DNA from: Geosiphon pyriformis | Lineage: Eukaryota; Glomeromycota; Glomeromycetes; Archaeosporales; Geosiphonaceae | NCBI GenBank assembly: GCA_016748015.1 | Contig: JAAOMT010000648.1 | Location: 234,659-298,658, forward strand | Direction of reading: 5' to 3' | Length of the DNA stretch: 64,000 nt | In this document: positions 7,401 to 64,000 of the stretch, in pieces | Layout of the letters: every line of letters begins with the position of its first letter | Position numbering within the stretch: position 1 is the stretch's first letter | Program-made: the position numbers and the translations under genes | The notes under the pieces: generated by a model | The model's database searches: none | Seen by the model: the letters and a program-made list of their open reading frames with translations, nothing else | What the model was told of the DNA's origin: nothing

Positions 7401-8899
7401 TCAAATAAGTAAATCCTCATCTGATGGAGCTGGGCATTTATTCATTATAATTTTAAAATATGGTCCAAAATGATTTGACTCATCCACTGGGTTTGAATCT
7501 AAAGTACCAGCATTACAATACTTTTTTTTTTAAAAAAAAAAAGTATTATTAAAACGTCAATAAACAAAATTAGCAATAAATACTGTTTAAATACCTGATT
7601 TTCACCACTTCCTTGAGGTTTTTTATATCCTTCACAAGAAAATAATAAAGGTATTTCGCTTTTGATTGGGTGGCTCCCTTCATCTTTAGGAGTTGTGCAA
7701 TCACAATTTGGATCCCATATCCAAACCTCAGTTTCAACATGTCGAAAGTCAGACGGAGGAGGAAACATTCTGGGAAGCCAATCATTGCTATGAGTAATCC
7801 GATAGATTTCCGGGAAGCGATCTCGATTAGAATTCATCAAATCGGCTAATTCCTTATTCCCAAACCGTGGGCTACCAAAAGCAATAGCAGCAATACGTGA
7901 TAATTCCCATTGACTTCCCAGTTTTTGCTTGAACGCTGTTGCGGCTAAAATAGCGTACACTATTCATATTAAAAATTATAGAATTAAGTTTTTATGAAAA
8001 TTTTTATTTGAAATAAGTTAGCAGAGATTTTCCAGAGTATTCACCACCACCAACTGCATGCCCAGTGAAAAATATGTTTACAAAACGTATTTTTAAACGG
8101 ATCTTTTCCTCCAAGTATCCATTAATTTTTCCCACAAGTCTAGGGACCATTTTGTCTACATTTTGTTTCCAAACAGCATCGACTAATGCCAAAGTTGGTT
8201 TTCCATCTTCATATTTGTATGGTTGAAGATTTATTGGCCTTTGCTGCCATTCAGAGCGAGTTAAAGTCCTTCCTTGAAAATAGACAATAATATCACTTTC
8301 ATAGAATCTTTCATTTCTATAAACAAAGGCTAATAGAATTGGAATCAAGATACAAATTAGCATTTATTTATGGGAAGACTAAACAAAAGATTTTCAGAAA
8401 CAATTTCAAAGCTACCTTTTGCTTCAGAAATGTCTATTACATTAGCTACATCACTCGATTTTCTGCAATATGCCCAATTTGCATATATTGCAATACGGGG
8501 AAAAATCCTGGGATAAAACTTATGATTAAATTTTCGTCTTTTTGGATATGGATTTTGTGCCATATTCGCTACTAAAAATGAAGAATTTTCATCATGAGGA
8601 ATCTTATTTCTTCCAAAATTTAAGTGGCTTTGGTTGATAGTGGGAATGATATCAACAAGATTATTTCTATTAAAATGCCATTCAGAATATTTAGTGACGA
8701 TTTCAGGAATTTGATTCTGAAATGTGGATTGTGTTCTAAGAAAATTCAATTTTTTATTCATAAATACATTGAGTGGTTGATTCAAGAAATAAAAACCAAG
8801 AGAATAAGCAAGTAACACTAGAAAGATTGGGGATAAGGCAATTGAAAACATTTTCAACTCCCAAAGATTTCCTGTCGAGAGTTGAGGGGCAATTATCAT
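7401..8899 (-). CDS. class 3 lipase-fold protein L1, nucleophile Ser replaced by Ala
   Basis: Member of the Rhizomucor-type class 3 (triacylglycerol) lipase family. Exons in transcription order are 8899-8416, 8329-8045, 7959-7595 and 7520-7401, giving 417 residues. Order of elements: hydrophobic anchor (about residues 17-39), variable linker, lipase entry motif YANWAYC, core strand DIIVYFQG, elbow FTGHAVGG, YAILAA helix, AFGSPRFGN, catalytic-Asp region THSNDWLPR, paired cysteines NCDC, and a tail with catalytic-His region NHFGPYF. Asp and His are present, but the elbow reads GHAVGG, so the Ser nucleophile is Ala and hydrolysis by the usual mechanism is not expected. The start could also be the ATG at 8854, which puts the hydrophobic stretch at the very N terminus. 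It is the only Ala substitution in the cluster. The anchor implies secretion or type II membrane insertion with the core on the lumenal or outer side (inference). Confidence 0.9.
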
Positions 8900-10434
8900 A
8901 AAAAAACAGTTTTACATAATGAATGAAAGTCCTTATCCATCAAGCTTTGGTGATTCGGGACTCATGTCAAATTATTAATAGTAAACAAATATTAATTCTG
9001 TTTTGATAGGACAAATAGGAAAATCGGAAAACCTTTTTCTCTTTATAATTTTATTTTGCTTGTTTGGGTTTTATTATCCTTCTTAAATAACTTTGATTAG
9101 TTGAAATTTTTTATGAGACAGTTTAATTCACTTTACTTGTTGAAAATAAGAAGACTTAAATAGTTACCAATTCTGATAGAAGATATTGATGCTATTATTA
9201 GTAAATGTAATAATAATAATATATCAAATTCATGGGATTGTAAAAAAGATTTTCGAAAAACTTGGATGACAAAAACTAGTATTTAAAATCAAAAGTTTTA
9301 TCCTCTCGGTTGTCTTGACATTTCTAAAGCAAGAAAAGGAAAGTGCCTTGGCTGCAGTCGATTTATTTTGATTAAAAAGGACTTTTTTTTATGGCCTGAG
9401 GACCTTATAAATATTGCAACAAAAAGAGAACAAATCTAATTATTGAAAACCGACCAGTAAGGCCATATCTTTGATGTTCGGATTCCAATTTTTTAAAGAG
9501 TAATCATGAACTCGACAACTTGAAATCTATTAAAAATTCTTATACTAGCATTTTAAGCAAATACAAAAATTTGAATTAAATGTACATGCATTTATTTTTT
9601 TCTGGTGATCATGTTCTTAATTATCAAAGGTTTTAAGGGGCCTTTGCCTAAATTTAATGTTTTTTACTTTTAAAATCAGGCAGGTTCAAAAAATCCATTG
9701 AAAGAATTTCAATCCTCAATATCTATCTGTATTTTCTTTAGACAAATATATTATTGTACTTGTGGCATGTTTTAAAATTTTTCACAATTTCAGGATATAC
9801 AAGGATAAGGTGATTAATGCATTTTAGCGGATTGAACTAAAGCCATGTGCCATTCTATGCTTGCGCACCAAACACCCGAAGGCACCCAGTGTTCATGAGC
9901 ACTGTCCGATTGCGTAAATATCTAATAGACTGATAATCGAAATTTTTACCTTAATTCAGCGGTTTCTCCCGAATTTATATTGTTATCACCTTCAGTTGAT
10001 TGGGCTTTTCAAGTATGAGAATAGAATTGTTTGATTCATATCTCATCTCATTGCGTCGTTTATTTTTGGTTCATTGTCAAGCGACAGCGGAAAAAATAAA
10101 AATATCAGTATTTGGAGAATCATCTGTACTGAATTTGATTCAATTATTGTCAACCATAATTGTGGGATAGGGAGGCTGATATAAATCAACTTTATTAGCA
10201 ACAGCTGGCTCCCACGAGACTATTTTGGCATGAAGGTAATGTTCGAAAAGAAGATGAATGGATACAAATAGTAGAAAAATTGGCTGAGAATAGTGCTGAA
10301 ACAGTATTCCTGAAATTCAGTCTTTCTTGCTCTTCAAAATCTGTCTGTGAACAGTAACGGTGATCTAGATTAATGAAAAATTTCATCTTCCATCAATTTT
10401 AATTAAAATCTGGCTATTATCCATGAAGACTTAT
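8900..10434. other. intergenic with possible decayed gene on + strand
   Basis: No intact gene. On the + strand, 10090-10370 contains two coding-like stretches separated by stops; they are described in the findings as a possible relic of a P-loop protein. The rest is AT-rich. Confidence 0.35.
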
Positions 10435-11772
10435 TTACTTTGGGGCAGGTTTGAAAGGAGGCAACCAATTGGTAATTTGTTTTCTACATTGTCCCATGGT
10501 ATAACCAAAATATGGTCCCATATGAGCAGCTTGATTTGGTATGAATCTAGAATCTTGTCTACCAGGCTCAAATTTTAAGTTGCATTCCTAAAATTCAAAG
10601 AAGACTCATTAAAAATTACAAATTCATGAAGAAAAACAAATTTGCACACCCAAAACCTTTTTTACCGGATGTTCAGTCATTTCTTTCAGGTAACAATCAA
10701 CTACTAATGGCATACGCTGAGGTCGATCTTCAAGTTCGCAACATTCATAGTCATCATCGTAAGGAATCCAATATTCAGTGTTTGGATGCTTAAATCTTCG
10801 ACTCAAATATAGCGGGACGTAATCTCTTCCATATGTTACCCGATTGATTGTAAAACGCTGACCAACAAATTTAATAAAATCTTCGTCACCAATTCGAGGG
10901 GCACCGAATGTTGTAACTTCGATATGCCTTTTTAATGACAGGCTACTCAGAAAAATATCAAGAGCTGCGTAAATTGCGATTACTGAAAAGAAATAAAGAA
11001 GAATTGAATAATCACAGATAATTTTTTAGTAATAGGGCAATCAATTTATCGCAGTTTTTCTGAAATCTTAACCTCCGCCATCCCCATGTCCAGTAAAGAG
11101 AAGCACATGGTTTTTATAATAATCATTGAGGAGATATTTGCGTAACATTTTCAAAATCTTGTTCTTTGCATAAAAATAATGAAAATATGGGTAAACAGGG
11201 ACTGAGATATCAGAATATCTTGTGGGATATTTCACATGAGACTGATTCGAATCTCTTCTTTCCATGATTTCAGGAGTCAATTGTCTGCTTCTAATTTGAA
11301 TAATAATTGCCCGGCCTAGCCCATTAAGAAGTTGTATTTTCTCATATGAAGGAAGGATCCATACTAATAAGATTTTAACCGGAATGTGAGTTTTGCTCGC
11401 CTTTTGCCCAAGATTGAAATTTGGAAAAGACCTTTTTCATTTACCATAAAGATCATTCGAAATAAAACTACTTTCTTTATGCAGACAATATGTTTGGTGT
11501 GCGTAAAAAGCCATGTCGGCCAAGAAATCTAATTTTCGAGGATCTAATATTTGATAAAGTGGATATAAGCCTCTTTTTTGATTTTTAGAATGCTCTCGAA
11601 CATTGGATAAAGGTGTGTTGTTGTCATTTTTGCCTATTTCAAAATATCCTATCAATGAGTTTTTCTTGTTTATCATATCATCAAAAATGACTGCTGCAAA
11701 AGTTAAGAAAAAAATGGCCATTAAAAGACCCATAAATTTTTGATCACATTCTTGAAGGGAATTTCTTGCCAT
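10435..11772 (-). CDS. class 3 lipase-fold protein L2, nucleophile Ser replaced by Gly
   Basis: Exons in transcription order: 11772-11445, 11363-11073, 10982-10666 and 10587-10435; 362 residues. The first in-frame ATG is at 11772. Residues of about 15-30 form a hydrophobic anchor, followed by a short linker and the entry motif MAFYAHQTYC, shared almost exactly with L3. The elbow is FTGHGDGG: Gly where Ser should be, with an unusual Asp behind it. The GQPRIG strand is FGAPRIGD. The Asp region is TYGRDYVPL and the His region AAHMGPYFG, so two of three triad residues remain. The GT dipeptide of the oxyanion strand is absent (IIIQIRSR). The gene diverges from L3 and, by shared motifs, forms a subgroup with it, which suggests an inverted duplication. 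Confidence 0.9.
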
Positions 11773-14065: not shown

Positions 14066-15225
14066 ATGAAGTTATTGACACAAACATCAATTCTCAGATA
14101 TTTGGCTGATGTTGCTTTTTACGCTCATCAAACTTATTGTTTACAAAAAGATGGTGGTTTTATAGATTTGGGCATTTATGGTAAAGTTAGAATTAATCTA
14201 ATGCTATTATTTCATAAAAATTTGAATTTTTCTTTTAATTTTCATCTCTTTCCTGATTTTAAAGTTTGGGTCTCCACTACCTCTGAACCATTATCATTTA
14301 AAGATGGACCTGCAAAAGCAATTATTGTTCAATTAAGAGGCATCGATTTAACTTATGATTTAATGGAAGGAATTTCTAAGGATTTATCAATGATTAAATA
14401 TTCTTTCAAAAAAAATATTATGGTAGCCAAAGCATTTTATATTGAACCGTATAGAGAAAATGCCAAAAACAAAATTTTGTTTATGCTTTCTACATATTTA
14501 AAAAATAATATTTATAAACAACATAAATTCGTCTTTACAGGACATGGTTCGGGTGGAGGTAAGGTACTATTAATGATTCTTTTTGGCCTTTTTTTTTTTA
14601 ATAGAATCTGTGAAAAATGCTGAACATTCTCACCCCAAATTCAATGATGGAATATCCCCAGCCCTAGCTGTGTACGCTGCCTTAGATTTTCGAAACTTTC
14701 TAATTGAAAATAAGTCTAAAAGGGATGTTGAAGTTGTAACTTTTGGTGAACCTCGAATTGGAACAAAATCTTTTTCAATATTTGCTGACTCAATGCTAAG
14801 TATTGCACGAGTCACTTTTGCTGACGATTTTGTACCATTGTTTTTTGCGGAAAAGTTGACTCATCATAATACTGAATTGTGGATTCCTGGGGATGATCAT
14901 GAATGTAATTGTCCAGATTCTTTGGATGAACCTCGAAAGTTTCCATTAATTTATAATTGTGTCGTTGTAAGAGGGGATGAAAATTCGGTAAATGAAGATA
15001 TTATTTTTGAAAAAAGCTTTTTTTTTTTTGCTTCAGTCATTAAATAATTGATTATATTTTTTTTTGATTATAAATTCGATTTCAAAGATGTGTAATAAAC
15101 AATTTCACCAGGAAGATACAGCTTCAGTAAAAAAACCTCTTGAATCACGTGTTCATAACGGACCATACTTTGGCTACATTATGGGACAATGTAGTAAAAA
15201 AAGAACAAATTGGATAGAAATCTAA
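14066..15225 (+). CDS. class 3 lipase-fold protein L3, lacks N-terminal anchor; elbow GHGSGG
   Basis: Exons 14066-14180, 14265-14558, 14662-14987 and 15112-15225 give 282 residues, clearly shorter than the 362-489 of the other complete copies. The first in-frame ATG lies just before the entry motif VAFYAHQTYC, so no signal or anchor is encoded. Upstream the frame stays open only to a stop at about 13983, and no hydrophobic exon was found. The elbow is FTGHGSGG: the nucleophile position is Gly, with a Ser one residue later that would not sit at the elbow tip. TFGEPRIG, the Asp region TFADDFVPL and the His region RVHNGPYFG are kept. The tail exon starts ED and lacks the usual Cys-Asn. It may be an N-terminally truncated copy, a cytosolic form, or have an unrecognised first exon. 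Confidence 0.82.
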
Positions 15226-16217: not shown

Positions 16218-16267
<50 letters not shown>

Positions 16268-16393
16268 TCGAACGTATTTTATAGGCCTATAAAACCATTG
16301 GGTGATTATGAAAGTTTACTTGGAGAGTTTCTGATTTTGAGTTACATGATTTTCATTCATGAAATTTTGTCGACTTTTATCACATTATAAACA
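15226..16393. other. intergenic with trinucleotide repeat
   Basis: No gene seen between L3 and the FetB-like gene. It contains the TAA microsatellite listed separately, just upstream of the FetB-like gene. Confidence 0.5.
16202..16265. repeat. (TAA)n microsatellite
   Basis: An almost perfect run of AAT/TAA units preceded by AAC units, about 130 bases upstream of the start codon of the FetB-like gene. Confidence 0.95.
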
Positions 16394-18464: not shown

Positions 18465-19990
18465 ATGAAGGAAAAGAAGAATCTTTGTCTTCAATTTCTG
18501 TTACCTCTTTTCATAAAATTTGTTGTACCTATTACAATTGTGATATTCACAATTGAGAACATTCAAAAAAATGGTCAATTTTCGATAAAACTTAAAAATA
18601 AAAAAGAATTTCAACAAAATTTCAATATACCTTATCCAAAAGAGATTGATTACAAGAATTTCACCGACAAATTTCTTAAAATTCATATAATAAAAAAGAA
18701 ATTAAAAAATGAGGCTCTATCTAAAATCTGGTCAGTTAATAATAAAGAGTCATTTCAAGATCCAAAGATTTTTCACAAATCAAGTTCAAAGATAAAAGGT
18801 CGAAGTTGGAGCTTTAGGTCAGAAGAAGAAGACCCTCAAGAGATAAAAATTTTGGATTATTCAGATATTGATTTTATTGAAATTATTTCTCGGTTTGCTC
18901 ATTGGTCAAATCAAGCTTATTGTAAAGCTGATGTGAACTTTTATCAGGTGGTCTCAATTCGTGGAGCACTAGGTACTCTGTTCATTATTCAAGTGTAGAA
19001 AATTTTTTGATTATCTCTTTATCAAATCTGTAAACTCTTTTTTACTTTTGTACTATTTCAAAAGCTAAGGTATTTTTTGAACCAGAATTCAGAGTAATAG
19101 TAGCATCTTTTCAAGGGCAAATTTTTTCTAGCCTGCAATGGACCAAGAGAAAATCTAATTTAGTTGCATACAAAAATGGTGGTCAACTTATCGATCGTGA
19201 TGCAAGAGTCGATGAAATATGGTTTCAAGATGTAGAAGCAATGAAAGATTCATTGATTTCTTTGATCAAACACTTGGTTTTATTAAATTTACAAAAGGAA
19301 GAGATATTTATTTGGCTTACTGGTCATGGAATTGGTGGTGGTAAGTGTTGATATTAAGCAGAGAAATCAAATTATTTTTTTAATATTTTTTCAAAAACTT
19401 TAACCAAAAAAACAGCATATGCAGTATTATCCGCTTTGGCACTTGTATTGGATGGAAAACTCTCTTTTGAATTAGATCGTGATCAATTTAATATTCACTT
19501 TTGGACGATAACCTTTGGGCAACCGCGAATAGGGAATTCGAAATTCAGTCAATTTGTTAATGATGAGCTTCAAGTTATTCGTGTCACTCATACAAATGAT
19601 TACGTCCCACATTATCCTCAATTTTCATTTCACCAACAAATTTTGAAACATCACCAAGAAGAACATTGGTTGGCCCCACCGCCTACATGTGATTGCGAAG
19701 AATTGGACAAGATTCCGCTTTATGCTGGGTTAGCCGTTTACGTATGTAAAGGAATAGAAGAAAACAAGGTATTTTTTTTTTTTTTTTTTTTTAAGAAAAA
19801 AACCTCTGTAGAATATGTTGAGAAAGAAATTCTCTAATTTAAACCGTCATTTCTGAAAATTCAATCGCACTAGAAATGTAATGCGGGACAAGTACAGACC
19901 GTTAGGAGCTCAATTTCTCATAACGGACCGTATTTCGGAGTAAAAATGCGGGATTGTCGCTCCTATGTCGACCGATTATATAGTTTATGA
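18465..19990 (+). CDS. class 3 lipase-fold protein L4, nucleophile Ser replaced by Gly
   Basis: Exons 18465-18972, 19065-19340, 19416-19768 and 19874-19990; 417 residues. Start is the first in-frame ATG. The hydrophobic anchor lies at about residues 9-30, followed by a Lys-rich, low-complexity linker of roughly 100 residues and the entry motif HWSNQAYC. Exon 2 carries RVIVASFQG and ends in LTGHGIGG (Gly for Ser). Exon 3 has TFGQPRIGNSKF, THTNDYVPHY (catalytic Asp) and a histidine-rich KHHQEEHW. The tail has CNAGQ, ISHNGPYFG (catalytic His) and MRDC. A poly-T run follows the third donor. Convergent with L5 across a 2.2 kb spacer. Confidence 0.92.
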
Positions 19991-22213: not shown

Positions 22214-23607
22214 TCATTTGCAGTTCTTCATGAAAATGTCAAAATAAGGTCCAAAATGAGGTGAAGGGGTATGAAGATCTAATAAATTTTGTCCTAATAA
22301 ACCTTGTCCTTGATTGCATTCCTAAAAAAAAAAAAAATAGAAATTTGGCAAAATAGAAATTATTATTTACTTTTTACAGTGAATCTACAATTGGATTTTT
22401 TTTAATAAATTTCATACCAAATTTTCACCAAAAATAGATTTATCTTTATAATACCCTGGACATCTATATAGCTCAAAATAACCTTGATTTTCTGAAAAAA
22501 TTGCATATGGATTTCTGCAATCGCAATCTGGATGTGAAATCCAGAATTCAGTTTCATGATGTTCGTAAAATTTTTCTCGTGGTGGGAACCGTGGAACGTG
22601 ATCATTGGTATGTGTAATGCGATAAACGTTCAATACTTTGTTAATGTGGGCTGCCAGGACTGGATTACCAATTCTTGGTTGACCAAAAGTGACTACGACT
22701 ATCCTCACATATTTATATAATCTTGTGAGGAGAATGTGTTTTCTGAAGCTTAGCGCTGCCAACACAGCGTACGCTGGATCGGTAAATTTTTTAATTTTAA
22801 AATAATTTCGAGAATAAAATAAAAGTTTAAAAATTTTCTAGATTATCGTTAAAACTAATTTACCTCCACCAATTCCATGTCCCGTAAATGACATTCTCTT
22901 TAGACCATGTGGTCCAGGAGAAAATAAAGGAATTGAATCTTCCAGTAATCTAGGCATTATAAATTCAACTTGATCGTACCATGTTTTGTCTACGGATGCT
23001 CCTGAAACAAAAGGATACTTTATTAAGTAATTCTCTCTCAAACTCCATTGCTTCGGAGAAAGGGCTCTATTGGTCCCGAAATAGGCAACTACTTGGTAGG
23101 ATGTTTTATCGAGAAATATGTCGGCTAAATTTTGAACAAAATTTTTTAATTTTAGCCAAGTGATCATTATAAAAATAACAGATATTCTTTTTTTAAATAA
23201 ATAAACATACCAACAAAGTTGAGAAAAACTTTGCCGTAGTCGTTTGAATTGTGACAATATGCAAGATTTGCAAATTTTGCAAATTTCTTGAAAACACTTT
23301 TATAAATTGGATGGGAAATATTTTTCTTATGAGGATACAATGGATATAATTCGCCTATGCCAGTACCCAAATTACTTGATAAAGGCTGTACATTAGCAAA
23401 ACTTTGGAAATTTCTATTTTCACGCTTCCACATCAAAATTACATTTTTTTGATTAAATCCTCCTACCCATCCAAAATATTTATAAAGGGAAAATAGTCCA
23501 AGAATGAAAATCCATAAAAAGATTAATCTCTTTAATCGCCAGTCATGTTTGATAAGAGAATTAAAATTTTCAGGTTTCCTTTTGAATGTGAAACAAAAAA
23601 TTGACAT
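22214..23607 (-). CDS. class 3 lipase-fold protein L5, nucleophile Ser replaced by Gly
   Basis: Exons in transcription order: 23607-23211, 23124-22864, 22773-22418 and 22321-22214; 373 residues. The N terminus is basic and then has an anchor (FLWIFILGLFSLY, about residues 30-43). Entry motif FAKFANLAYC. Exon 2 contains DIFLDKTSYQVVAYFG and ends in FTGHGIGG, with Gly at the nucleophile position. Exon 3 shows VVTFGQPRIGN, ITHTNDHVPRFPP (Asp) and PDCDC. The tail has CNQGQ, PHFGPYFD (His) and a final NCK. Head-to-tail with L6 and L7 on the same strand, 850 bases downstream of the L6 end. Confidence 0.92.
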
Positions 23608-45961: not shown

Positions 45962-47491
45962 TTAAAAAAATATCTTATATGGAGATCCTCTTTCCAAACT
46001 GCATTCCCCTATATTGATTCCAAAATAAGGCCCTTTGTGTGCTTTTAATTCTTCTTCGAGGGTACCCTTTTGACCTAAATTACATTGCTATTTTTAAAGG
46101 ATAAAAAACTTTAAATTAGACACCCAAAAATTCTGAATATTCTAAACCTAATCCAATACTAACCGGATTTTCAAAAAAGCCAGCAGGTTGAGGATATTCT
46201 CCATTGCAAAAATAAATCTGAAAATCTTCAGCGGACTCGACTGTTTTAATTTGACTTTTATATGAACAATCACAAGATTGATTTGGTATCCAAAACTCAT
46301 TCCCACTATGTCCAAATATATCTTGATTCATGAAAAGCCTTGGAATAAAATCATTGCTATGAGTGATTCGGTGTAAATTCTGTTCAAATTTTGCGCTTGC
46401 AAGTTTTGCAAAGTCTTTGTTGCCCGTCCGTGGTTGTCCAAAAGTGAACACTGTGACAAGTATATCCACATCTAAATCATGAAATGTTGGGCCTTGTTGA
46501 TCATACTCCTCTTGCAAGGCTAAAGCGGCAATTACTGCATATGCTGGAAAAATGAGAAATAATGTTATTGAGGAAAAATGGAATTTGGAAATTTTAGCAA
46601 AGAAACATACCTCCACCGACACCATGACCGACAAATCTTACGTTTACATATGGAATGAAATCGTCCCATAAATGAGCAATACTATCACTCCAAGTTTTAA
46701 GTAGAGATCGAATCCTGTTGAAGAGTCTTGGTTTCATTTTTTTCACATCAGAACTCCAACTTTTATCAACTTTGGCTTTGGTTCCGATTTTATAATTTTT
46801 AAGGGAAATATTTCTTGCTTTCCATTTTTGTAATGTTAATTCTTGTCCTCGAAAGTATGCAACTATCTCTTTGTTTCGACTATCAAGAAACACATCGGCT
46901 GAAAGTTCAAAAAAATACATTTGAAAAAATAGAAATTTTTACAACTTTTTTTAATTTTCAAAATTTACACCTACCGACTACACCTTTTTGCTTAATTCCC
47001 ACTCGATTTTCATTGAAGCAATAAGCAAAATTAGCAGCCCTAGCCATTCTTGGAAATGGTTCCAAAACATATTGATTAATCACCAGGTATTTTTCTGGAT
47101 ATCCATCTTTTAATGGTTTTGTAAATGTTGTTGATGATTTAGTTTGCCGTTTGAGCTTTGTTTTTGAGCCATGAAACTGATGAAAAGGTTCACTATTATT
47201 TAAATTTTGTGATTTACTTGACTTTGAGGTTGTGAATGAATAATTAAGTTGGCTAAAATTTTTATTTTCGTAGCTAACTCTATAATACATTAAGACTGAA
47301 TCATTAATAATAAACTTTGGTTCAACCTTTGCCATTAGAATCCCAAATTTGTTCAAGTAGATTGTGTAAAACACTAAGAATACCAAAAATAAGTAGATCA
47401 AAATTTCCAGAATATATTTGAGTAAATATCTACTTTCATACTTTCGCTGAGATGCAAGTAAATTTCTCTCTGATCTTGGCTCGTATCTCAT
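45962..47491 (-). CDS. class 3 lipase-fold protein L11, nucleophile Ser replaced by Gly
   Basis: Exons in transcription order: 47491-46975, 46898-46611, 46543-46164 and 46087-45962; 436 residues. A basic cytosolic-like N terminus (RYEPRSERN) comes before a strong anchor, IYLFLVFLVFYTIYL (about 32-46), fitting a type II membrane protein. Linker rich in Ser and Lys; entry motif RMARAANFAYC. Exon 2: EIVAYFRGQELTLQKW, VDKSWSSDVKKM and the elbow FVGHGVGG (Gly for Ser). Exon 3: TFGQPRTGN, THSNDFIPRLF (Asp), QSCDC and YFCNGE. Tail: QCNLGQ, AHKGPYFG (His) and GEC. Head-to-tail with L10, L12 and L13 on the minus strand. Confidence 0.92.
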
Positions 47492-48497: not shown

Positions 48498-50068
48498 CTA
48501 TAGATGAGGGCAAATCATCATATAACTAAAGTACGGCCCATAATGGTTTAATTTAGAGTCACCTTTCAAGTTGGGTACAGAATTATTGCAAAGCTTAGAA
48601 TAAAAAATTATTTGGAGAGTTAATTTAAGTTGTAACTTTAAAAGTGTTAAAAATTATAAAAAAGTTAATTACCGTGGATTCGTTTACACCAGAATTCAAG
48701 CTAATGTCTTTACACTCAAATACTTGATAAATCTCTGGACAGTCACATGAAAAAGAAATCCAGAACTCTGTTTCATAATGCACGTAACCTGCTCTTCCTT
48801 TCTTTTCAGGGAACTGAGATACGTAATCATCGGTATGCGTGACTCGATAAATTGTTCCAAGTTTATTCTTTACATGTTGAGCAAAAAAACTATTTCCAAT
48901 TCGAGGGCTTCCAAATGTATACACCTTCACCTCAAATTCATGTGTAAAGCGAGGGATATATTGAAGTTCTAAAGCAGTAAATGTAGCATAAACTAGAAGA
49001 ATGACAGAGTAAAAATAAGCAGAATTTTTAGGGAAAATTTTTCAAAAAATTTTACAAATCAGAACTCAATATCAAATAGCTTTAAAAGAGGAGAAAACAA
49101 AATTTATATATATATATTTATAATCCAAACCTCCAGCTATTCCATGCCCTATCAACGTAATCTTTTTGTGGCTGTACAATAAATCTTTAATTTTTTCTTT
49201 AACTTTGTGTGATACATTTGAATAATCTTCCCAAAAATAGGCGTCAACTAATCCGAGTTCCAAATAAGGATAATTAACCATTTTTTGGGGTCTGCCTTCC
49301 CATTGCATTTTGTTTAACTCCAATTCTTTAAAAAAAAATATAATTTCATCGGCAATCACCTCAGCTTTCCCTAGATAATTAATAAAACTTTTTTTTTTTA
49401 ATTTCATATTATTTGAAACTTTACAATAAAAACAATTTACCATATAATCCTTTCATCAACATGTCATCTGCACTTTCCAGGCAATAAGCTTTTTGTGCAT
49501 AACTGGCGTAAAATCGAAAATCCGCAATCAGTTTTTCATCAGTGACTAAATTTTTATACTGAGAATTTATATCTGTGATTCTATTATCCTTTAAATCATC
49601 TCCATAATCATATTTCGACCTTTTTTGCCACGAAATATTTTCAAAGGATCTTGTAATATTAGATGAAATGACTTTTTGGGAAAATCTTTGATGTTTATTT
49701 GTAAGTTCCTGAGGTTTTCTAAAGCTTTTGTTATCATTTTGCGATATGTTAAAATAAATTTTGAAAGGTTTTTTTTGAAATGTATTGGATATATTTTTTT
49801 TGAAATCCCTCAAAGGCTCTTGTTCTGCTTCAACATTTGAGGTGTCCCTTCTCGTATGAAAACCTGGTTTAAATTTTATTTCACCAGAATACCCAGAAGA
49901 AAACAGTATAAAGAGTAACCATCCTAAAATTAAACTTTTTAAGATAATAGGAAATTTTTTCCAAAATTGTTGCTTATACGAAAAAGATTCAAATATGAAT
50001 TGCTTCCTATTTCGATTTGAAGCAGGGTGAGATTTTGTAAAATCCAAGCAAACAAAATGCTTATTCAT
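48498..50068 (-). CDS. class 3 lipase-fold protein L12, elbow GHGIAG
   Basis: Exons in transcription order: 50068-49441, 49370-49131, 48992-48673 and 48593-48498; 427 residues. Anchor SLILGWLLFILFSSG (about 45-59), then a long charged linker of some 130 residues and RFYASYAQKAYC. Exon 2: EVIADEIIFFFKELELN and the elbow LIGHGIAG, with Gly for Ser and Ala for the first closing Gly, as in L9. Exon 3: VYTFGSPRIGN, THTDDYVSQFP (Asp), FSCDC and FECKD. Tail: LCNNSV, NHYGPYFS (His) and MICPHL. Exon 2 may begin at 49370 or six bases later, since both acceptors keep the frame. The second donor is GTTTGG. Confidence 0.9.
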
Positions 50069-51088: not shown

Positions 51089-51119
<31 letters not shown>

Positions 51120-52410: not shown

Positions 52411-53994
52411 TTAAAGGCAGTCACCCATGGTAACCCCAAAGTAAGTTCCTCGATGTTCTAAAAGACTTTTCTCCTCAGTCCCTGCCACCTGTCCAGCATT
52501 GCATTCCTTTAGAAAATTTTTGAAAAAAGTTAAAGATTAATTTTTCCTCATAACTTCTTCAATTTCACAGCTTAAACTTCTCACCGGATGTTCGCTCTCA
52601 AAATTTCCTTGCGCTTCCAATTCGGGGCATTCCCAAAGAATATGACCATTTAAAATCTCTGGGACCGTCTCGTCATCGTTATATTGAGGACAATTACAGT
52701 CAAACTTGGCCAACCAATATTCTCTTTGATGATGTCTCCAATCAATAGGAGATGAAACTCGAGGAATTGGGTCATTGGCGTGAGTTACACGATATACATT
52801 GAGAATTTTATTTACAAACTTTGCAAAAATTAAGTTTCCCATCCGAGGTTGGCCAAAAGTGATTGCTTCGACGAAGAGATTTGAAGCAGGAAAACTAGTA
52901 TCTCGTTTACGGAGTTCTTTTTCAAATTTTATAGCGGCTAATACTGCATAGGCTGTGAAAGGTGACAAGAAAAGTAAACTTTTACATTAAATAGCAGATT
53001 AAATTTATAACACAAATTATCATGATAATATAATTGAAATAATATTTACATCCTCCTATTCCATGTCCAGTAAATCTAATTGGTAAGACTATATTTGATC
53101 TTTTAAATGACTTCAAAAGTCGTAGAACTTTTTCCAAAATTTTTGGCCACATTTTTTCCACTGCTCCATTAACATAATAATCCAGTATTCTGTCTACATC
53201 TTCAAAGCTTACAGTTAAAGGTATAGCTTTTTGATCCCTGTCTATACTAGTGAATGGAGCCCCCTTGAAATATACAACTATTTCTTTGTTGGATGAATCC
53301 ACAAAAGCGTCAGCTTTAAATGATAATGAAGGGAATAAAAAATGAAATTTCATCAGTTTTTGAATTTCTTCCATTGTATCCCAGAAAATTTAAAACAATC
53401 GAACTTACCAACTACATTTTTTCCAGGCACAAGTTTTCCTATTGCATTGTTTTTTCGACAATAGCCAAAATTTGCATACGTTGCGAATTTGGCCAACATC
53501 GTGATAATATTAATATCTCGTACAATGGTCTTACCAGGATATTGTGAGCCAGAAGTTTGTAATTCTGAGGGAAGAAATTGAAAGTTTCTTTTCTTTTCTT
53601 TTTTGGAGGGTTCAATACTGTTCATATTATAATTTTCATTATTTTTTAACAAGCTTTTCTCACCTCTTTGGCTTTCATCATTTTCTTTACTTTGATTTCT
53701 TGTCACACGTGAATTAATGTCTACATTTAATTGAAGTGGTTGCTTGCGTTGATTCCAACTCTTCTGTTGCAACATTTTATTTTTCTCGGCTTCTATTAAA
53801 TTCACACTGTATTGTGAGGAAAAGATTAACGAACACAACCATATCGAAAATATTACAATAAAACAAATTGTAGGAATTAAAGTATGTTTCGGTGGGTTAT
53901 CGATGAATTTTCTAGGTCGAGGATGCAAAGAAATTGGTTTCTGAAAATGTTTAGAGGCGAAAGTGTAATAATCAGAACCACGATTTTTTTTCAT
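52411..53994 (-). CDS. class 3 lipase-fold protein L13, nucleophile Ser replaced by Gly
   Basis: Exons in transcription order: 53994-53409, 53313-53050, 52952-52585 and 52506-52411; 437 residues. Basic N terminus, anchor LIPTICFIVIFSIWLCSLIF (about 39-58), and a Lys/Asn/Glu-rich linker of about 110 residues. Entry motif KFATYANFGYC. Exon 2: IVVYFKGAP and the elbow FTGHGIGG (Gly for Ser). The junction then gives Ser instead of the usual Ala or Val, because the donor lies after GGAT rather than GGAG. Exon 3: ITFGQPRMGN, THANDPIPRVS (Asp), DWRHHQREYW and DCNC. Tail: CNAGQV, LEHRGTYFG (His, with Thr in place of Pro) and MGDC. Diverges from L14 with 691 bases between starts. Confidence 0.92.
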
Positions 53995-54685: not shown

Positions 54686-56392
54686 ATGTCTTGGTCTTGT
54701 AATTTACACAAATCCTATAACTTTGTAAAGTTTATCGGATATGAAACTAGAAAAAAAATAATAGGAATTCACCTATTTCTTGCCCTTTCTTTCGTCTTTT
54801 TGATGTCTCACATTAAAGATGTAAACGCCATCTCATGGAAGCTAAAAAACTTCATTCAGAAACGACAAAATGAAATTCTCAGTGAAAACAATATTTCATT
54901 GGACTTTGAACCAATTCCTACTGTTAAATCATTTGAATCAAATTTCCTATATCCAATTTATAAAGAAGAAAATATCTCAAATAACAGGAAATATTACTCT
55001 TTGAATTCAAATGGTTGGTCAGATTCTATTTCTAGGCAAGAATCTGAAAAAAATTTTGATGACTTAAGCGATGAGTTTTTGGGTACTGAGACTGCAAGAA
55101 AATTTGAAACCTCTGAGAATATTTTAACAAAAAGCCCATTTCCAATTGAAACTCAAAAATTTGACATCAATGGCAATTCATTGATTCAAAATGAAATATC
55201 TACAAAAGAAGTTAACTCAATGAATCCATTCGTCGGTTCTAGTATGTTTAATTATGAAACGAATCAAGAAGGAAATTCGTGGTCAATTGCAGAGGATATT
55301 ATTGATAATCCAAGCATAGGAAATGAAAATTCTATAAACTCAATCAATCCGAATACCAAGATATTAGAGCGGTTTAAGTTGTTTGCCAGATATTCAAAGA
55401 TAACTTGGTGCAAAAATTCTGGCACAAAATATTTTAATAAAAATGTTTTAGGTAATTTTACCTCTAATCTTAAGTAATAATAATTCCCAAATAAAAGTTT
55501 AATTTATATATTCTTTCTCATTTAAATTTTTATATTTAAGGAAATGTATTCTTTGAACCAAAAAATGACGAAATTGCAGTTATACTAGCTGGTAAGGATC
55601 AAAACGCCTCTCAGATGTTGGCAAATAATACTTATCTAGAATACCCGGGCAAAATCGGATTTCATGTGAACAGGGCTTTATACGAAACTTATGTGGGGGC
55701 TGAGAATAAAATAATTGAACAGTTGAGCCAATTATTGAATTCCGACCCTAAATCACCCATAAATCTGGCAGGCTGGAGTCTTGGTGGAGGTAATTTTTTT
55801 TAATGAATATTTTTCATTTTCGGGATTAATAAAATTACACAATTTTTACTTATAAAATTTATTATTAATGAAATGACAAATTAATTTAATAGCCTTTGCG
55901 GTTTTTGCTGCGATTTTTATCAACATAAAATTTCCAAACAATCAAGTGAACGTATACACCTATGGCCAACCACGTATTGGATTAAAAAATTTTAAAACGT
56001 ATCTGAGCTCTCGTAAAAACCTCCGAATTTACCGCATGACAACAAAAAATGACCCATTTGTAGATTTGCCCATGCGTTTTCCGTTAGGATATGTGCATAC
56101 TGGTCAAGAGTATTTGACCAGCACCATTAACAAGATGGAAACATTCGAATGTCCTGATGGTCCTAATTCTGAAAATACGGTATTTGATGTGTTTTGGAAC
56201 TTTTGATACAGTTCAACTGCAACATATAATAATACAAGAAAATCTTTTTAATCATTTTATTTCGCTTCATTTTAGCAATGTGCAAGTCAGTTAAACTTAC
56301 CTGCTGCATTCAGACTTCGTAATAATGAATACAAATTATCACCACATAGTGGTCCATTTTTCGGGTATAATATGACCAATTGTAATTATTAA
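54686..56392 (+). CDS. class 3 lipase-fold protein L14, Ser nucleophile kept (elbow GWSLGG)
   Basis: Exons 54686-55451, 55541-55789, 55893-56179 and 56276-56392; 472 residues. Anchor LFLALSFVFLMS (about 30-41), then an acidic Asn/Ser/Glu-rich linker of about 185 residues, the longest so far in the cluster. Entry motif FARYSKITWC, with Trp before Cys. The elbow is LAGWSLGG: it fits the general GxSxG pattern, but the His before Ser, nearly universal in the family, is Trp. Exon 3: VYTYGQPRIGL and TTKNDPFVDLP (Asp); the paired CDC cysteines are missing. Tail: QCASQ, PHSGPFFG (His) and TNC. The triad is therefore complete, and the protein may be active. With L15, L16 and L17 it forms a subgroup with acidic linkers. 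Confidence 0.9.
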
Positions 56393-57071: not shown

Positions 57072-58647
57072 TCAGGGAATAAAAATACTGTTTGGCCAAT
57101 ACTCGAAGTGACATTGTCCCATTTTAAAATTAAGGTATGGGCCAACATGTGGATGAACCGGATTTTCGTTTTCGGCATTTAGTCTAGAGCCAGATTGTGA
57201 TTGAACCGAATTGGCACAGCTCTATAAAAGTGATTGCGAGAAGCATATTATACAATCTTAATTAATATCATGTTATAATTATAAACAATTCTTAATCCGA
57301 ATAACTTTCCTCACTCTCAACTCCAGGACTAGTGTCACATTTGTACACCGTATTAGCTGAATCAGCAATCCAATATTCTAATTTATGATGTGTATACCTG
57401 GTCTCCGAATCGCTGGCCGGCATTTGTACAAATGGATCAATTGTATGTGTAAAGCGATATATTTTAAAGTTTTGAATATTATCAACGTATTCAGCAAATT
57501 CTTTGTTTCCAATCCTTGGCTCTCCAAATGTGGTGATTATTATTTGTTCGTCTTGAAATGTGGGAATATTTATCAGCGCTAGACCTGCAAGCACTGCATA
57601 GGCTATAAGGATAAAGATATTGAACTCATTTTGGAATTTAGAAGAAATCTCAATAAAACACTTTTTATGATGAGAGAAGTTTATTTATACCACCGCCGAG
57701 ACCATGTCCAGTCAAAACAAATTTCCATTCAGGTCTTATTTTTTTTATTCTCACAAGGTTTTTTAAAATCTTGACTTGAGCACCATTAAATCTTTGATAC
57801 AAGCCAGCATGAACTTTTGCGAAAGAAGAAAATGCAGCAGTAGGAGGATAATCGATTTGGCGGGTATTTTTTTTAAATTCAATTGGATGTCTTTCAACAC
57901 CGAGAAAATTGAAAATAATTCGTTTCTTTTGTGGTTCCAATTGAGCAGAACCTGGAATGGATTAAAAACGTTTAAGTTTTAGAATCAATTTCATTATTCC
58001 CAAAAATGCCAAATGACCCGAAATTTACCTAAGATATCATTTGAAAACTTGGAGGTTTGGTCATTTAATTTTAAGCAATATGCTAATGCAGCCCATCTAG
58101 CATATTCTTCTAAACCTTTCAGTTCTTCTATTGGCACGAGTGTTTTCAAAGTGTCTGTTTCTTGTGTTGATTCTACGGCAAACAATGAATTTATTTTTCC
58201 TTGTATTTTATTTGAAGAGCCTGAGTTTTCAATCGAAAGATTTACTGGAAATGCAATATAGTTAGATTTGTTGTCATTTGTGTAATTTGAGCTTGTAAAA
58301 ATCTCATGAGGGTAGTAATTGTCAATCCTCGAGTTATCCAAATATGAAGGTTCTTCGTTGAACGAGGACATTAATGGGACCAAGGGATCTACTGCGGTCA
58401 TTTCTGTTTCGAGAGAACCAATAACAAAAATTAAAAAAAGCATTATTTTTTCAACTAAAAACGAGTTCTGTCCTTGCTCACCAACTAGAATATCTTGATC
58501 ATAATCATTATTCTCATTTGAAAACTGATCTAAAATTTGTCGCGTTAGCAATCGTTGAACAGGTTTAGCTTGAATCAGACATTCATTAAGTAGGCCAAGA
58601 AGCAATAAATAAAGGATGAAATGTTTCGAGCCCCGCTCTAGAATCAT
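57072..58647 (-). CDS. class 3 lipase-fold protein L15, nucleophile Ser replaced by Gly
   Basis: Exons in transcription order: 58647-58029, 57951-57691, 57602-57322 and 57221-57072; 436 residues. The N terminus looks like a cleavable signal (ILYLLLLGLLNECLIQA), with a second hydrophobic stretch, IMLFLIFVIGSL, near residue 70. The linker is acidic. Entry motif YARWAALAYC. Exon 2 begins SAQLEPQKK and ends LTGHGLGG (Gly for Ser). Exon 3: TTFGEPRIGN, THTIDPFVQMP (Asp) and HHKLEYW. Tail: SCANSV, HPHVGPYLN (His) and GQC. The third intron is the weakest call in the cluster: the only in-frame donor found is GTTGAG at 57321, so the end of exon 3 may be slightly wrong. Confidence 0.87.
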
Positions 58648-59797
58648 TTTTATGGGGTGGAAAAATATGAAGAGTAAAACGAAATTTTAGTAATGTCTAT
58701 CTTATATCAGTAAATGGAAGGGGTTTATTTTCGAAACGCGCTGATTTTTGTTTGCTTTCCCAAAAATACAAGATTTTCAGTGGGACTTGATGTGCGAAAT
58801 ATTGATAAAGAATGTTAATGAAAATAGATTTGATAAGTATCTAATTCTTTTAACATAAAACTCAATACCTTTTAGAATAAATTTTAGCTTATTTATTTTT
58901 GAATTATTCAGAAAAATTTAGCTGAAATTTAAAATTGATAAATATTATCTAGATCTAATTGACAAAATTTTCCAAGTTTTTAAACAAAATATTATTATTT
59001 ATTTTATATTTAAAAATTTAAATAATTTTTTACATAATTAATTTCAAATAAAAATTTCTCAGCTTTTAATTTATTGTAAATATATAAATATTAATGACAA
59101 AGTTAATTGAATTTTTTAATTTTAACATTTTTTATAATTATTGTTAAAGATGCTCACAAAATTTTTTTTACAAAAATAGGCTTAAATATTAGTTCAATTT
59201 CTAAAAAATTTTTAAACTTGAATTAGAAAATTCGAGTTTTCAATACAAAAAGATTACTAACTTATTAAATGGCCATATTAATAATATTTTTTGAGAGACT
59301 TATATTAATTCTTAATGAAAGCATTTTGAAAAATTCTCATATCTCTAATTTTTTCTGCAGAAACAACTATAACATATAAAAAAATTTACTATTTATTTTC
59401 AATATAATAAAATTAAAATAATTCTTTAATATTAGTGATAGATTATAAATTTTGCAAATGGGTTATTTTTCAAAATACATTGAAAAATTGAAACTTCAAA
59501 CAGATCAAATTGATGTTGCGAAAAAATACTGTAGATCAGTAAAGGTTTATTTTGGTTAATTGTAACACAATATTATTTAATTGTTGGTAAGGTTTCATCC
59601 TAGTTTCTTCTTGAATGATTTGTTATCGTTTCGAAGTTGGAATGTTTTTTGTTTTCTGTGATCAAATTAAAAAATGTGGTTTTAGCATCATAAAGAGAAT
59701 TATCAAGTAATGATTTTATTTGATAGATAAAATATAAATACATGTACTTTACCTTGATTCCTACATCACAAGTGGCAAAGGATTTTTAATTTTGAAA
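58648..59797. other. bidirectional promoter region between L15 and L16
   Basis: 1.15 kb of AT-rich DNA between divergent starts, no exon recognised. Confidence 0.45.
59733..59740 (+). promoter_or_regulatory. candidate TATA box of L16
   Basis: TATAAATA lies 58 bases before the L16 start codon, a plausible spacing for a short 5' UTR. In such AT-rich DNA a chance match is possible. Confidence 0.35.
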
Positions 59798-61485
59798 ATG
59801 CTCCATAATCTTTTGACAATCAAGGTGGCTTTATTATGCCCATTTATTGTAAAGCTTTTGCTCATTTTCCCATTACTAACAAGGGCAAGCCCAATTGCCG
59901 AAGAATATGCCGAGGAAACACAGAATTTACTTTCACAAAGTAATGGTTTCATGAATTCAGAATCGAATTTAATTTTACACGACATGAATCTCGATGAGTT
60001 GTCATCATTTGAAAAAAGCGAGAAAGATATCGTAGATTCAGATGAGATTGAAGCCTCTATTACATTACCAGAAGTTTCACAAGAGCAACAAAATTTAAAC
60101 GAGAATCAAAACCTATTTGACGAGGTGGCTAAAAAATTCGATTCACTTAATCTAATTCCTGCTGAAGGAGGTTTAACTGATGAATTAAGGGAAGAAAGTG
60201 GCTCAAATATCGACGAGATAGTTTCATATTCAACGGAGGAACCAATATCAGGACCTTCCTTTGTTAATATAAAAAATGCTAAAACAAAAAAAGGGATGCT
60301 TGACCATGCGCGTGATTTCATTTTTGATGTGCTACATCATCGACAAGTTTTAAGCAAAAAAGATAAAAATATCAGCGATCTACAACTCTATGCAAAAGTT
60401 GCAAACGTTCCTTATTGCCAACCATATAACCGAATTTCAATAAGCTATTTCGGTTCGTTGAATCTAATCACTTTAAAAAGTTTACAAGTTCTAATTCTTT
60501 GAAAAATTTTTTCATTTCTAAGGAGCTGAGCAAACCAGACAATCAAATGTTAATGTCATCGTAGTGACCTTTGGAGCCCATAAAACAAGTTTACACGATT
60601 GGAAACGTGATAATGTCGTAATGAAAACTTTATATCCAGCTTACGTAACAGAAAAAGAATTTCATCGAAAAAATTTTTTCGACTGGAAAAACGAAATGGT
60701 TCATGGAGAAATGTATCGCGACTGGTGCCCCCATCAAAGAGATTTTTTAAACGAAATGAAGAAATTGGTTGAGAAATATCCTAACCATGGCATTCGGTTT
60801 GTTGGTCATGGATTAGGCGGAGGTTTGTCTCGTATTTTCTAACAAATTTATTGTCAAATTTAAGCTTTTTTAATCTTTTATTTTAAATTCTCTTCAAAGC
60901 ATACGCAATATTCGCGATGCTTGCGTTCATAATAAATTATCCAAAAAGTAGGGAAGTAGCGGCTTATACATTTGGCCAGCCACGTATTGGGAACCGAGCA
61001 TTTGCCCGATTTGTCAATGAAATGATATTTTTGAAAACAATAAAAGTTTATCGTGCCACTATATTAGGTGACCCAATTATTCTTTGGCCTGATACATCGA
61101 ATATGTCCGAAACTTCCCAAATAACGCCATTTCAACATCATGAAACGGAATTCTTTATCGATGAGGAAAACCAAGTGGTTCGTTGCCAGAGTGAAAATGA
61201 TGAGGGTACTGAAAACAAGGTAAATTTTCCAAACCATTAAATGAATTGTTTTAAAGCTATCAAGTTTTTAGCGAAAATTCAATATTGTAGAGTTGTTCTG
61301 CTGGTCATAATCAACAAAACACTGTAGATAAAAATACTGGTCCATATTTTAGCATTCCAATGGGAACTTGCATCGAGCCCCAGTCCATCATAATTCCGGA
61401 GACTGGCCAAAATTTCATCAATCATTATTTTTATGTTGAATCTAGTGATTATAAACACAACATTTTACATAGAAGAAAGTATTAA
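59798..61485 (+). CDS. class 3 lipase-fold protein L16, lacks both Ser and His of the triad
   Basis: Exons 59798-60452, 60523-60822, 60900-61219 and 61291-61485; 489 residues, the longest complete copy. First in-frame ATG at 59798. A signal-like N terminus ends near LLTRASP (about 33), then an acidic Glu/Asp/Ser-rich linker of about 150 residues leads to LYAKVANVPYC. Exon 2: VIVVTFGAHKTSLHDW and the elbow FVGHGLGG (Gly for Ser). Exon 3: YTFGQPRIGN and TILGDPIILWP (Asp kept). The tail has SCSAGH, but the His region reads DKNTGPYFS, with Asn where His is expected. It is extended by about 30 residues beyond the last conserved cysteine. The first donor is GTTCGT. Confidence 0.9.
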
Positions 61486-63021
61486 TTTTAGTAAAACAGG
61501 CATGTTTTTTTTAGCTAGAAGGATATTTATCAAATTTAGAGAGTTCGATTTATGATAAAAACGCAATCATCAGACATGAAACCTTTTATCACTCAGAGAA
61601 AAAGTGCGGGAACTTTCTATATACCAAAGATTTTATAGGCTTAATTTTCGAAATTAATTCTGTTATTTAAAAGGCCAAAGTCATTAATTTTTTAATTCAA
61701 GCCTTCTTGTTGAATTTTTGCCAACAGGTCAGTTTTTGACTTCATATATTAATAATAAAAACACTATCTGGGATGTTGATAATTAATGTTTCACATTTAG
61801 AATTTCTCGGAATATTCTACTTATTACCTGTGAAACATATTTCAATACAATACATGTAATTTGAATTTGTTTTATTATTATAATTTCCGTAAAATCATTT
61901 TGATATATTGCCAAAAAGAAAAATCTTTATCACACATATTTTTATAAAGTTGAGGATTAATGTTCAAATCTATAATCTTTCTGTGTAAAATAAGAGGCCA
62001 ATTTTTTATTCACAAAATTATCTAAAGGTGATTGATATTGATTCAAAAATAAAATACTTTGAAGCAAATTCCTTTCCTAATGAGAACTCTTTTTAAATGT
62101 TGGCTTGCTTTCTTCCATCTTTTTCTCTATTCATTGAAAAGTGTCATTTTTTACTTTTTAGCAAATTTCATTAGTTTCATTTGTCATCATTGAATCAATT
62201 GATCTGTTGTTAAAAGCTCTCTAATTTAAAATCATAATTTTAAACTTTATTTTCACTTGTTAATTTTATGCTAACCTATATTTACATATGTTACTCATTG
62301 AGAGCTTTGTTTTAATATTATTAAAATTTATTAATTTTTATTTAACTCAATTTACTGGAAAAAAACAAGTTTTAATACTTTAGGTTTTAGGATAAAGTTA
62401 AATATTAAAATCATTCAAATATTATCATTGAAATGATTTTATCCTTAAGAATTTGCTTTTTTGCATTTCAGTTTCTGAAGATAAAGGTTTTAAATTTTGT
62501 TTCTACTTGTACTCATATGAGCAGACTTGGAGTCTCTTATTTCTTGAAGAATTTTCTACAAATTTGGTAATATTATTATTAAAACATTTTTCCGTTGAGA
62601 ATTTTTATTTGAATGAAAATTTAAAGATAGACTTTCTTTCAAAGAAACGAAATCTTTTAAAAAGAACATTTTGCTCGTATTAAAGTTATGTCAATTTCCC
62701 AACAGAAATTTGCAATATTCTTTTTTATATTATTATTATTATTATTATATATAAAAAGTCATCTAATTCAAATGATTTAATATTCATTATTTTCGGAAAT
62801 TTATTTTAAAAGTTTCAAACAATTATAAGAGGGTGTTCATATTCTAATCCGAAATGAGTTTTTATAATTTTTCCGATTAAAATATTAGACCCTAAAAGCG
62901 AACTTATCGAATCCCAACAAGTATAAAACCAAAAAAGCTTTAAGCTTTTGGAGGGAAAAACTTTTTAATTGAAATTTCCTTTTCATATAAATACCAGCTA
63001 GTCGAAAACTGAATTTTCCCC
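61486..63021. other. intergenic between L16 and L17
   Basis: 1.5 kb of AT-rich DNA, no supported gene. The promoter of L17 is at its right end. Confidence 0.45.
62985..62993 (+). promoter_or_regulatory. candidate TATA box of L17
   Basis: ATATAAATA lies 37 bases before the L17 start codon. Spacing and form resemble the element before L16. Confidence 0.35.
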
Positions 63022-64000
63022 ATGAAGTGTTTAAATATTAATAATTTGCTAAATTTCCAAAAAAAGCCAAGAGTTTCAATAACAGAAACGTTTCATGCAC
63101 TGACCTTAGTTTCTTTCATATTATTTACGTTTTCTTTGAGTTACCTTGTCACTTTCGCATATTCTTCACCTCTTTTAACAAATAACAACTATGATAATCA
63201 AAGACGACAAATAATGAACCTAAATTTTGATTCTGAATTTCAAGATCCACTTTTAGCTTCTTCAAGCGAAACAGAATTCAATGAAAATTCTCAACAGTTG
63301 GAAACAATAGATTCTTTAACTTCTCAGTCTGAATTATCGAATAATCAAATTAAGCCTCAGGAGTTTAGTTCGAATCTTTTAGGAACTGAACAGGGAGAGT
63401 CGATAGATATGCAAGTACCTGATTTATTCGCAACAGCTGATATAAATAATAACCCTGCAAGTGGCTTACGTGAGTTATGCTGTAATGTTTTTATAATTTA
63501 AAGTTAATTCTCTTGACCATTAATACCTTTCAACTTTCAATTGAAAGAAACATCAATCGATCAAGATGTGTTCGATAACGGAGGGTCTAATCCAACAAAA
63601 GTTTCTTTCGAATTCGGAAAATGGACTGAAGAGCACGTGAAAGATGTTAATTTCGTTTCAGGGAGCGATGCGGTTGAAGACAATTTAGCGTTATATGCTC
63701 GAATGGCAAATACGGCTTATTGTTTCAAAGAAAAAGTCTCTGCAAGATATTTTGGTAGGTCATGACTTTTCTTTACCATTTAGTTTTTGACATTTTTTTT
63801 TAACGCAGAAAATGGAATCAACTATTTCCATTAGATTTTGTTTTTTCTCAAGTTTGGACTAAATTTCCCCTATCTTCTTTCGTCCTTAGTCAATGAAAAT
63901 TTTAACTTTCGGTCTCTCGTAACAGTTTTTAGCGGGCTCGAATCTGACTTGCATGAATACCAGAGTACAACCAAAATTGATATAACTACATATCCCGAGA
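63022..64000 (+). CDS. class 3 lipase-fold protein L17, cut by the window end
   Basis: Exons 63022-63469, 63548-63754 and 63890 to beyond the window end. The frame is open at the edge. N terminus with a hydrophobic segment (LVSFILFTFSLSYLVTFAY, about 29-47), then an acidic, Gln/Asn/Ser-rich linker. Entry motif LYARMANTAYC. The last visible exon starts as exon 2 of the relatives (FRSLVTVFSGLES, corresponding to the core strand and oxyanion region). Unlike the other copies, its linker is interrupted by an extra 78-base intron (63470-63547), with donor GTGAGT and phase 1. The elbow and the triad lie outside the window, so activity cannot be judged. Confidence 0.87.

Follow-up and report, generated by a model that had tools for sequence, protein, structure and literature searches.

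The 64,000-nucleotide stretch of the Geosiphon pyriformis genome analysed here (the window; positions 234659-298658 of contig JAAOMT010000648.1, our C252; GC content 29.5%) carries a run of genes with the fold of class 3 lipases (Lipase_3, PF01764), most of which lack the nucleophilic serine (Ser) of the GxSxG elbow. These genes belong to a genome-wide family of several hundred copies, and the nucleophile is missing from 113 of the 149 modelled copies in which its position could be tabulated. Judging from sequence, we think it rather probable that the family is secreted, no longer hydrolyses esters and most likely consists of binding proteins. We regard a non-hydrolytic role as the best reading because Ser has indeed been lost widely and selection acts on the copies. 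An initial annotation of the window had argued for such a selected role; the argument holds on these two points, but the loss does not come out as a single event, since Ser and Ser-less copies interleave on the tree obtained.

Family size and loss of the nucleophile

The assembly searched comprises 124.7 Mb (megabases) in 406 contigs. Elbow words with glycine (Gly) in place of Ser, GHGx[GA]G, occur 329 times, compared with 24 for the same pattern read backwards, the control used for all genome-wide word counts. GH-Ser words number 45 with an AGY codon (control 4) and 27 with a TCN codon (control 7), the latter possibly including other alpha/beta hydrolases. HxGPYF, the word around the catalytic histidine (His), occurs 414 times (control 5), and its variant NxGPYF, counted over Ser and Ser-less copies together, 70 times (control 12). 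The Gly pattern finds only 69 of the 96 Gly models described below, so we infer that the Gly copies number nearer 400; the Ser patterns find 24 of the 36 Ser models. Among the first 100 listed of the 329 Gly elbows, 58 have another listed Gly elbow less than 20 kb (kilobases) away. The cluster first recognised in the window is real, but the family is genome-wide and not a single cluster.

We wrote a spliced profile aligner to rebuild the copies and also located elbows by a six-frame motif scan. Residues were tabulated in 150 models, comprising the 16 copies of the window and 134 stretches around Pfam Lipase_3 matches. The latter were drawn from the best 150 of 750 candidates, a choice that favours canonical copies; for most of them the match lies on the exon 3' of the elbow, and some matches cover both exons. 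One model (L056) has no elbow. Tabulating the nucleophile by Lipase_3 profile, the check proposed with the initial annotation and made here on these models, gave Gly 96, Ser 36, Asn 5, Ala 4, Asp 4, Arg 3 and Cys 1 in the remaining 149 (Gly 83, Ser 34 and others 16 in the 133 outside the window). The backbone of the nucleophile elbow is strained in lipases, and the spectrum of replacements fits in the main an elbow best tolerated by Gly, Asn and Asp; the Ala, Arg and Cys cases do not fit. We divide the models into a canonical Ser clade (12), other Ser models (24) and Ser-less models (113). Two of the 36 Ser models, L007 and L020 (score 81), are of another Lipase_3 type (GHSLGAALG, Ser codon TCA) and have no introns in the modelled part; they were left out of the tree, which holds 147 of the 149.

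The Gly codons of the 96 models are spread over GGA (41), GGT (35), GGG (10) and GGC (10), and we therefore reject assembly error as the source of the Gly elbows. Alternative splicing that would restore Ser was likewise rejected: the open exon that holds the Gly codon is long and reaches its donor about 10 bases beyond that codon, and a scan of the six window frames for G[HYF]-S-x-[GA]-[GA] matched only the elbow of the copy at 29770. That scan does not reach unusual Ser elbows, because the GWS of the copy at 55790 lies outside its pattern. The gene structure is shared, as had been claimed for the window, in that 145 of the 150 models have an intron immediately 3' of the elbow (profile column 113), 129 have one at column 234 and 90 have one at column 25 or 27. 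The whole domain is spanned by 89 of the 113 Ser-less models, and 73 of those 89 have exactly the three standard introns.

In a quick tree of the 147 models, Ser and non-Ser copies interleave, with 18 changes when both directions are allowed, four of them forced by starred branches; shuffles average 30.7 changes, and none of 500 gave a value as low as 18. If Ser was never regained and the root is placed at the canonical clade, 35 losses are needed. Many inner branches are weak (31 of 144 are well supported). Reversion from Gly to Ser is possible, given that the Ser codon is AGY, one step from GGY, in 33 of 36 models.

Other catalytic and structural positions

The catalytic aspartate (Asp) is present in all 150 models. 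Five of the 258 columns are fully invariant among the 113 Ser-less models, and that of Asp is one of them; Asp is also kept in all 104 Ser-less representatives of less than 70% mutual identity, whose median pairwise identity is 30%. His is found in 115 of the 133 models aligned there and Asn in 14; for the Ser-less models the figures are 89 and 12 of 104. The alignments show Ser and Asp at positions equivalent to those in solved fungal lipases; the equivalence of His is based on a C-terminal alignment of one canonical copy with entry 1tgl. Six cysteine (Cys) positions are widely retained.

In fungal lipases, the residue after the F-R-G sequence provides the oxyanion hydroxyl. In the canonical Ser clade this residue is Thr in seven of the 11 models that align there. 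Ser or Thr follows the oxyanion Gly in none of the 22 other Ser models and in four of the 106 Ser-less models aligned at this position. As the hydroxyl is mostly gone from the Ser-bearing members of the branch too, possession of Ser is not enough to identify a copy as active; the two Ser copies of the window are probably not typical lipases either. A CxC motif shows the opposite distribution, being found in none of the 12 canonical, 13 of the 24 other Ser and 94 of the 113 Ser-less models, where models short of the region are scored as lacking it (L007 and L020, among the 24, do not reach it). From the loss of the oxyanion residue and the distribution of CxC across the classes, the change of role seems to have preceded the loss of Ser.

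The tyrosine (Tyr) at column 114 occurs in 18 of the 24 other Ser and 70 of the 113 Ser-less models. It was considered as a substitute nucleophile and rejected because the Ser copies have it too, and the column table of the models shows no conserved candidate for an alternative nucleophile near the elbow.

Selection on the copies

We compared 16 hand-picked pairs of paralogues, which are not fully independent (L077 is in two, and some of the pairs share a subclade), with conserved columns defined on 82 rows outside the compared pairs. The counting method used for the ratio of nonsynonymous to synonymous differences (pN/pS) ignores codon bias. In six Ser-less pairs with synonymous divergence (dS) below 0.15, pN/pS rises from 0.32 at conserved columns through 0.37 at intermediate ones to 1.11 at variable ones, the contrast between conserved and variable columns giving a Fisher P of 1.5e-5 (counts rounded). 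Five pairs with dS of 0.28-0.6 give 0.21, 0.31 and 0.74, and five with dS of about 0.7-1.1 give 0.10, 0.29 and 0.73. The core residues are under purifying selection and the rest of the protein is diverging fast.

In two pairs the exons have diverged more than the introns: L077/L092 (dS 0.080, nonsynonymous divergence (dN) 0.097, intron 0.024) and L042/L089 (dS 0.052, dN 0.038, intron 0.013). This could reflect diversification or conversion.

Leader, linker and processing site

A hydrophobic leader (Met followed by a hydrophobic stretch within 60 residues) is present in 55 of 94 Ser-less models, compared with 180 of 2420 shuffled sequences. The linker from leader to domain in these 55 models has a median length of 89 residues. 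It is enriched in NxS/T, the sequon for glycosylation (115 compared with 70.6 +/- 7.8 expected; reversed motif 77 compared with 71.7), and in Lys-Arg, the Kex2-type site (55 compared with 28.0 +/- 4.7; Arg-Lys 31 compared with 28.6). Within the last 90 residues before the domain, a stretch that may take in untranslated frame in some models, Lys-Arg is present in 65 of 87 Ser-less models (33.1 +/- 4.3 expected; Arg-Lys 38 compared with 32.9), at a median of 27 residues before the domain, and in 12 of 24 Ser models (4.8 expected). The features of a secreted prepro-lipase (hydrophobic leader, pro-region and dibasic site) are thus present at the sequence level, and together they point to a product that would be secreted and processed.

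Copies in the window

Sixteen copies with complete elbows lie between 7434 and 61371 on both strands, and their elbows, recovered by the scan and the aligner, are as first described: 13 with GHGxGG or GHGxAG, one with GHAVGG and two with Ser. The scan alone catches 15 of the 16, GWSLGG falling outside its pattern. All four copies that were scanned with the Lipase_3 profile score well above the Pfam cut-off of 22 (60.7-75.4 bits). Asp is kept in all 16. Of the 14 Ser-less copies, 13 have His, in agreement with the earlier count; 12 of these were recovered by the aligner and that of the copy at 57709 by eye in a downstream frame. The Lys-Arg site is found in 11 of the 16; the stretch before the domain has none in the copies with elbows at 19322, 37939, 55790, 57709 and 60804.

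Naming each copy by the position of its elbow, the Ser-less copies on the forward strand are GHGSGG (14540; 14114-15192) and GHGIGG (19322; 18891-19957), both seen by motif scan and aligner, and GHGVAG (37939; 37543-38575) and GHGLGG (60804; 60389-61371) from the aligner, the last having Asn in place of His (NTGPYF). Those on the reverse strand begin with GHAVGG (8063; 7434-8497), for which the aligner gives domain exons 8497-8416, 8329-8045, 7959-7595 and 7520-7434, and GHGDGG (11091; 10486-11514; motif scan and aligner; 62.0 bits). They continue, from the aligner, with GHGIGG (22882; 22220-23286; 66.2 bits), GHGIGG (25136; 24507-25542), GHGLGG (27417; 26738-27827), GHGIGG (42756; 42097-43224; 60.7 bits), GHGVGG (46629; 46001-47050), GHGIAG (49149; 48516-49510) and GHGIGG (53068; 52417-53490). 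The model of the remaining reverse-strand copy, GHGLGG (57709; 57361-58104; aligner and frame reading), ends 5' of the last exon, with HVGPYL downstream. The two Ser copies, both on the forward strand and from the aligner, are GHSLGG (L8 of the initial annotation; 29770; 29352-30361), which has an AGT codon and no oxyanion Ser or Thr (IRGI), and GWSLGG (L14; 55790; 55382-56383; 75.4 bits). The 5' part of a seventeenth copy, with its leader exon, occupies 63013-64000 on the forward strand and runs beyond the window as L134, which has a Gly elbow (FAGHGLGG). The cluster extends past the window with L134, L130 and L016 (C252:298352-303293).

Two other genes were noted. A P-type cation ATPase gene has an exon at 4061-4705 (PF13246, 32.2 bits), upstream of the lipase cluster, and an amidase exon (PF01425, 86.6 bits) lies at 34136-34477 within it, similar-looking open frames reaching to about 35983. 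Elsewhere in the assembly, the word GGTCATTGGTYNGGTGG recurs on many contigs among the matches listed and looks like another repeated element, not a lipase. The only genome match of the 18S start word lies at L136 (G000:C320 near 1046530), a copy that seems to deviate at 18S positions that are normally universal. COX1 (PF00115) has no genome match at expectation values (E) up to 0.001, and the mitochondrial genome is therefore probably outside the assembly.

Discussion

We suggest that the family arose and works as follows. The N-terminal leader would take the protein into the endoplasmic reticulum, the roughly 90 residues after it would form a glycosylated pro-region, and a Kex2-like protease would cleave after Lys-Arg, some 27 residues ahead of the domain, so that a disulfide-stabilised lipase fold may be released outside the cell or into the symbiosis compartment. 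On the branch to the family, the oxyanion hydroxyl would have been lost and the CxC motif and the post-elbow Tyr gained; the nucleophilic Ser would then have become dispensable and been replaced several times, mostly by Gly, which would ease the strained elbow. Asp and usually His (or Asn) may be retained as a structural or ligand-holding pair. A conserved core with a fast-diverging remainder would be the pattern of a recognition or ligand-binding repertoire, and the simplest guess is that a lipid or other acyl ligand would occupy the old substrate groove.

Several observations weigh against this reading. The invariance of Asp might be structural alone. The six loci selected through the elbow-bearing exon (L005, L006, L008, L009, L010 and L066) all have Ser. 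The leader is found in only 55 of the 94 Ser-less models and also in 14 of 27 Ser models, 30 of the 55 have a surrounding charge in favour of the inside-basic side and 11 an equal one, and the domain itself is depleted in NxS/T (81 compared with 166; reversed 145 compared with 164). The dN/dS analysis proposed at the outset gave a divided answer: conserved columns are well below 1, but variable columns are near 1 in the young pairs. Of the six youngest Ser-less pairs, three have an overall ratio of 1.21-1.29 and three one of 0.52-0.73; the one young Ser pair gives 0.35. In several pairs dN is similar to intron divergence, so constraint over much of the protein is weak, and a pN/pS of about 1 at the variable columns fits relaxed selection equally with diversifying selection.

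The alternative that survives best, although we hold it to be unlikely, is a repertoire for allorecognition or defence, in which the fold would be only a scaffold for variable surfaces, and other hyphae or microbes, the cyanobacterial partner among them, would be recognised by these. It would account for the hundreds of copies, for the close neighbours of many Gly elbows and for the rapid change outside the core. We give somewhat less weight to the possibility that the Ser-less proteins are regulators, decoys or chaperone partners of active Ser lipases, acting for example as dimers or by competing for substrate. The same genome does hold a canonical Ser clade that could supply such partners, but its 12 models are far outnumbered by the 113 Ser-less ones, whose diversity goes beyond what a few partners would need. 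It is improbable that the Ser-less proteins are still enzymes, working through Asp-His and water or through other chemistry in the space left by Ser. Universal Asp and prevalent His would suit such a mechanism, but the oxyanion Ser or Thr is mostly absent, His has given way to Asn in a minority of the Ser-less models and in the NxGPYF words, and the elbow shows no conserved substitute. Least probable of all, and to our minds very doubtful, is the idea that lipase genes duplicated in a burst and then lost their activity neutrally, leaving decaying copies with no present function: the high ratios in half of the youngest pairs and the likeness of dN to intron divergence would be expected of it, but the conserved columns are protected even in the youngest pairs, most Ser-less models span the domain with standard introns, and none has lost Asp.

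Returning to secreted binding proteins as the favoured reading, a fuller version can be offered only tentatively, and we would not be surprised to see it fail: a secreted lipase of this Nostoc-housing fungus, from a group lacking fatty acid synthase, may have given rise to several hundred diversifying Ser-less lipid or ligand binders, carriers or recognition molecules at the fungus-cyanobacterium or hyphal surface. According to passages of the papers concerned, no fatty acid synthase homologues are found in the Glomeromycota analysed (PMC11134847), and their loss has been proposed in the common ancestor (PMC9453076). In line with the group, a FAS_I_H profile, run without a fungal positive control, has no match in the genome. 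The link to lipid auxotrophy serves as context only. Should the proteins turn out to be lipid binders or surface markers, they would be candidates for the handling of host or symbiont molecules in a lipid-auxotrophic fungal lineage.

Comparison with known systems

Among the literature titles and abstract openings listed by our searches, none describes such a family; the Geosiphon genome paper may report the expansion. The word "lipase" is absent from passages of PMC11134847, PMC9453076, PMC8786786 and PMC13315312. Lipases of the yeast LIH1 type are class 3 lipases. In passages of PMC10629195, LIH1 is duplicated multiple times in Mucorales with unclear function, and these passages mention neither loss of Ser nor such an expansion in Glomeromycotina, a difference from the present family. 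Duplications of TGL1 in Glomeromycotina, and average numbers of secreted lipases that are similar in saprotrophs and symbiotrophs, are reported in passages of PMC10629195, PMC8778642 and PMC7550596 between them.

The initial annotation knew of no family of this kind. The kind itself has precedents, since EDS1/PAD4 and the yolk proteins of Drosophila are lipase folds without hydrolysis. In EDS1, PAD4 and SAG101, the class 3 lipase fold is reused as a non-hydrolytic ligand-sensing domain. Profile matches to these proteins are weak, the best reaching E 6.6e-10 (EDS1) and 4e-9 (PAD4). EDS1 and PAD4 are intracellular and have an EP domain at the C-terminus, whereas the two Geosiphon copies that were read to the end stop 10-12 residues past the last Cys (later exons are possible in others), and a hydrophobic leader is common in the Ser-less models. 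The Drosophila yolk proteins, which we take to belong to a different lipase family (PF00151), are a lipase fold without the catalytic Ser reused for storage and binding, encoded by three genes and found in animal eggs.

By sequence, the closest of the known systems are the secreted fungal class 3 lipases, which share PF01764, the Asp in a TND.VP motif and the Cys positions with the Geosiphon family; profile matches reach E values of 4.3e-28 (5ap9), 5.6e-28 (1dt3) and 9.8e-25 (1tgl), entries that we take to be Thermomyces lanuginosus lipase (the first two) and Rhizomucor miehei lipase. The lipases of Rhizomucor and Rhizopus also have a leader and a pro-region. Unlike them, the Geosiphon family has replaced the nucleophile in most copies, has mostly lost the oxyanion Ser or Thr, carries the additional CxC and runs to hundreds of copies. 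Families usually hold only a few pseudoenzymes among many active members; in this one the copies that look inactive are the norm and number in the hundreds, with Asp invariant despite the low median identity. On the fuller version of our reading, it would be the largest pseudo-lipase family known to us. The family is in any case a natural experiment on the uses of the lipase fold without its chemistry.

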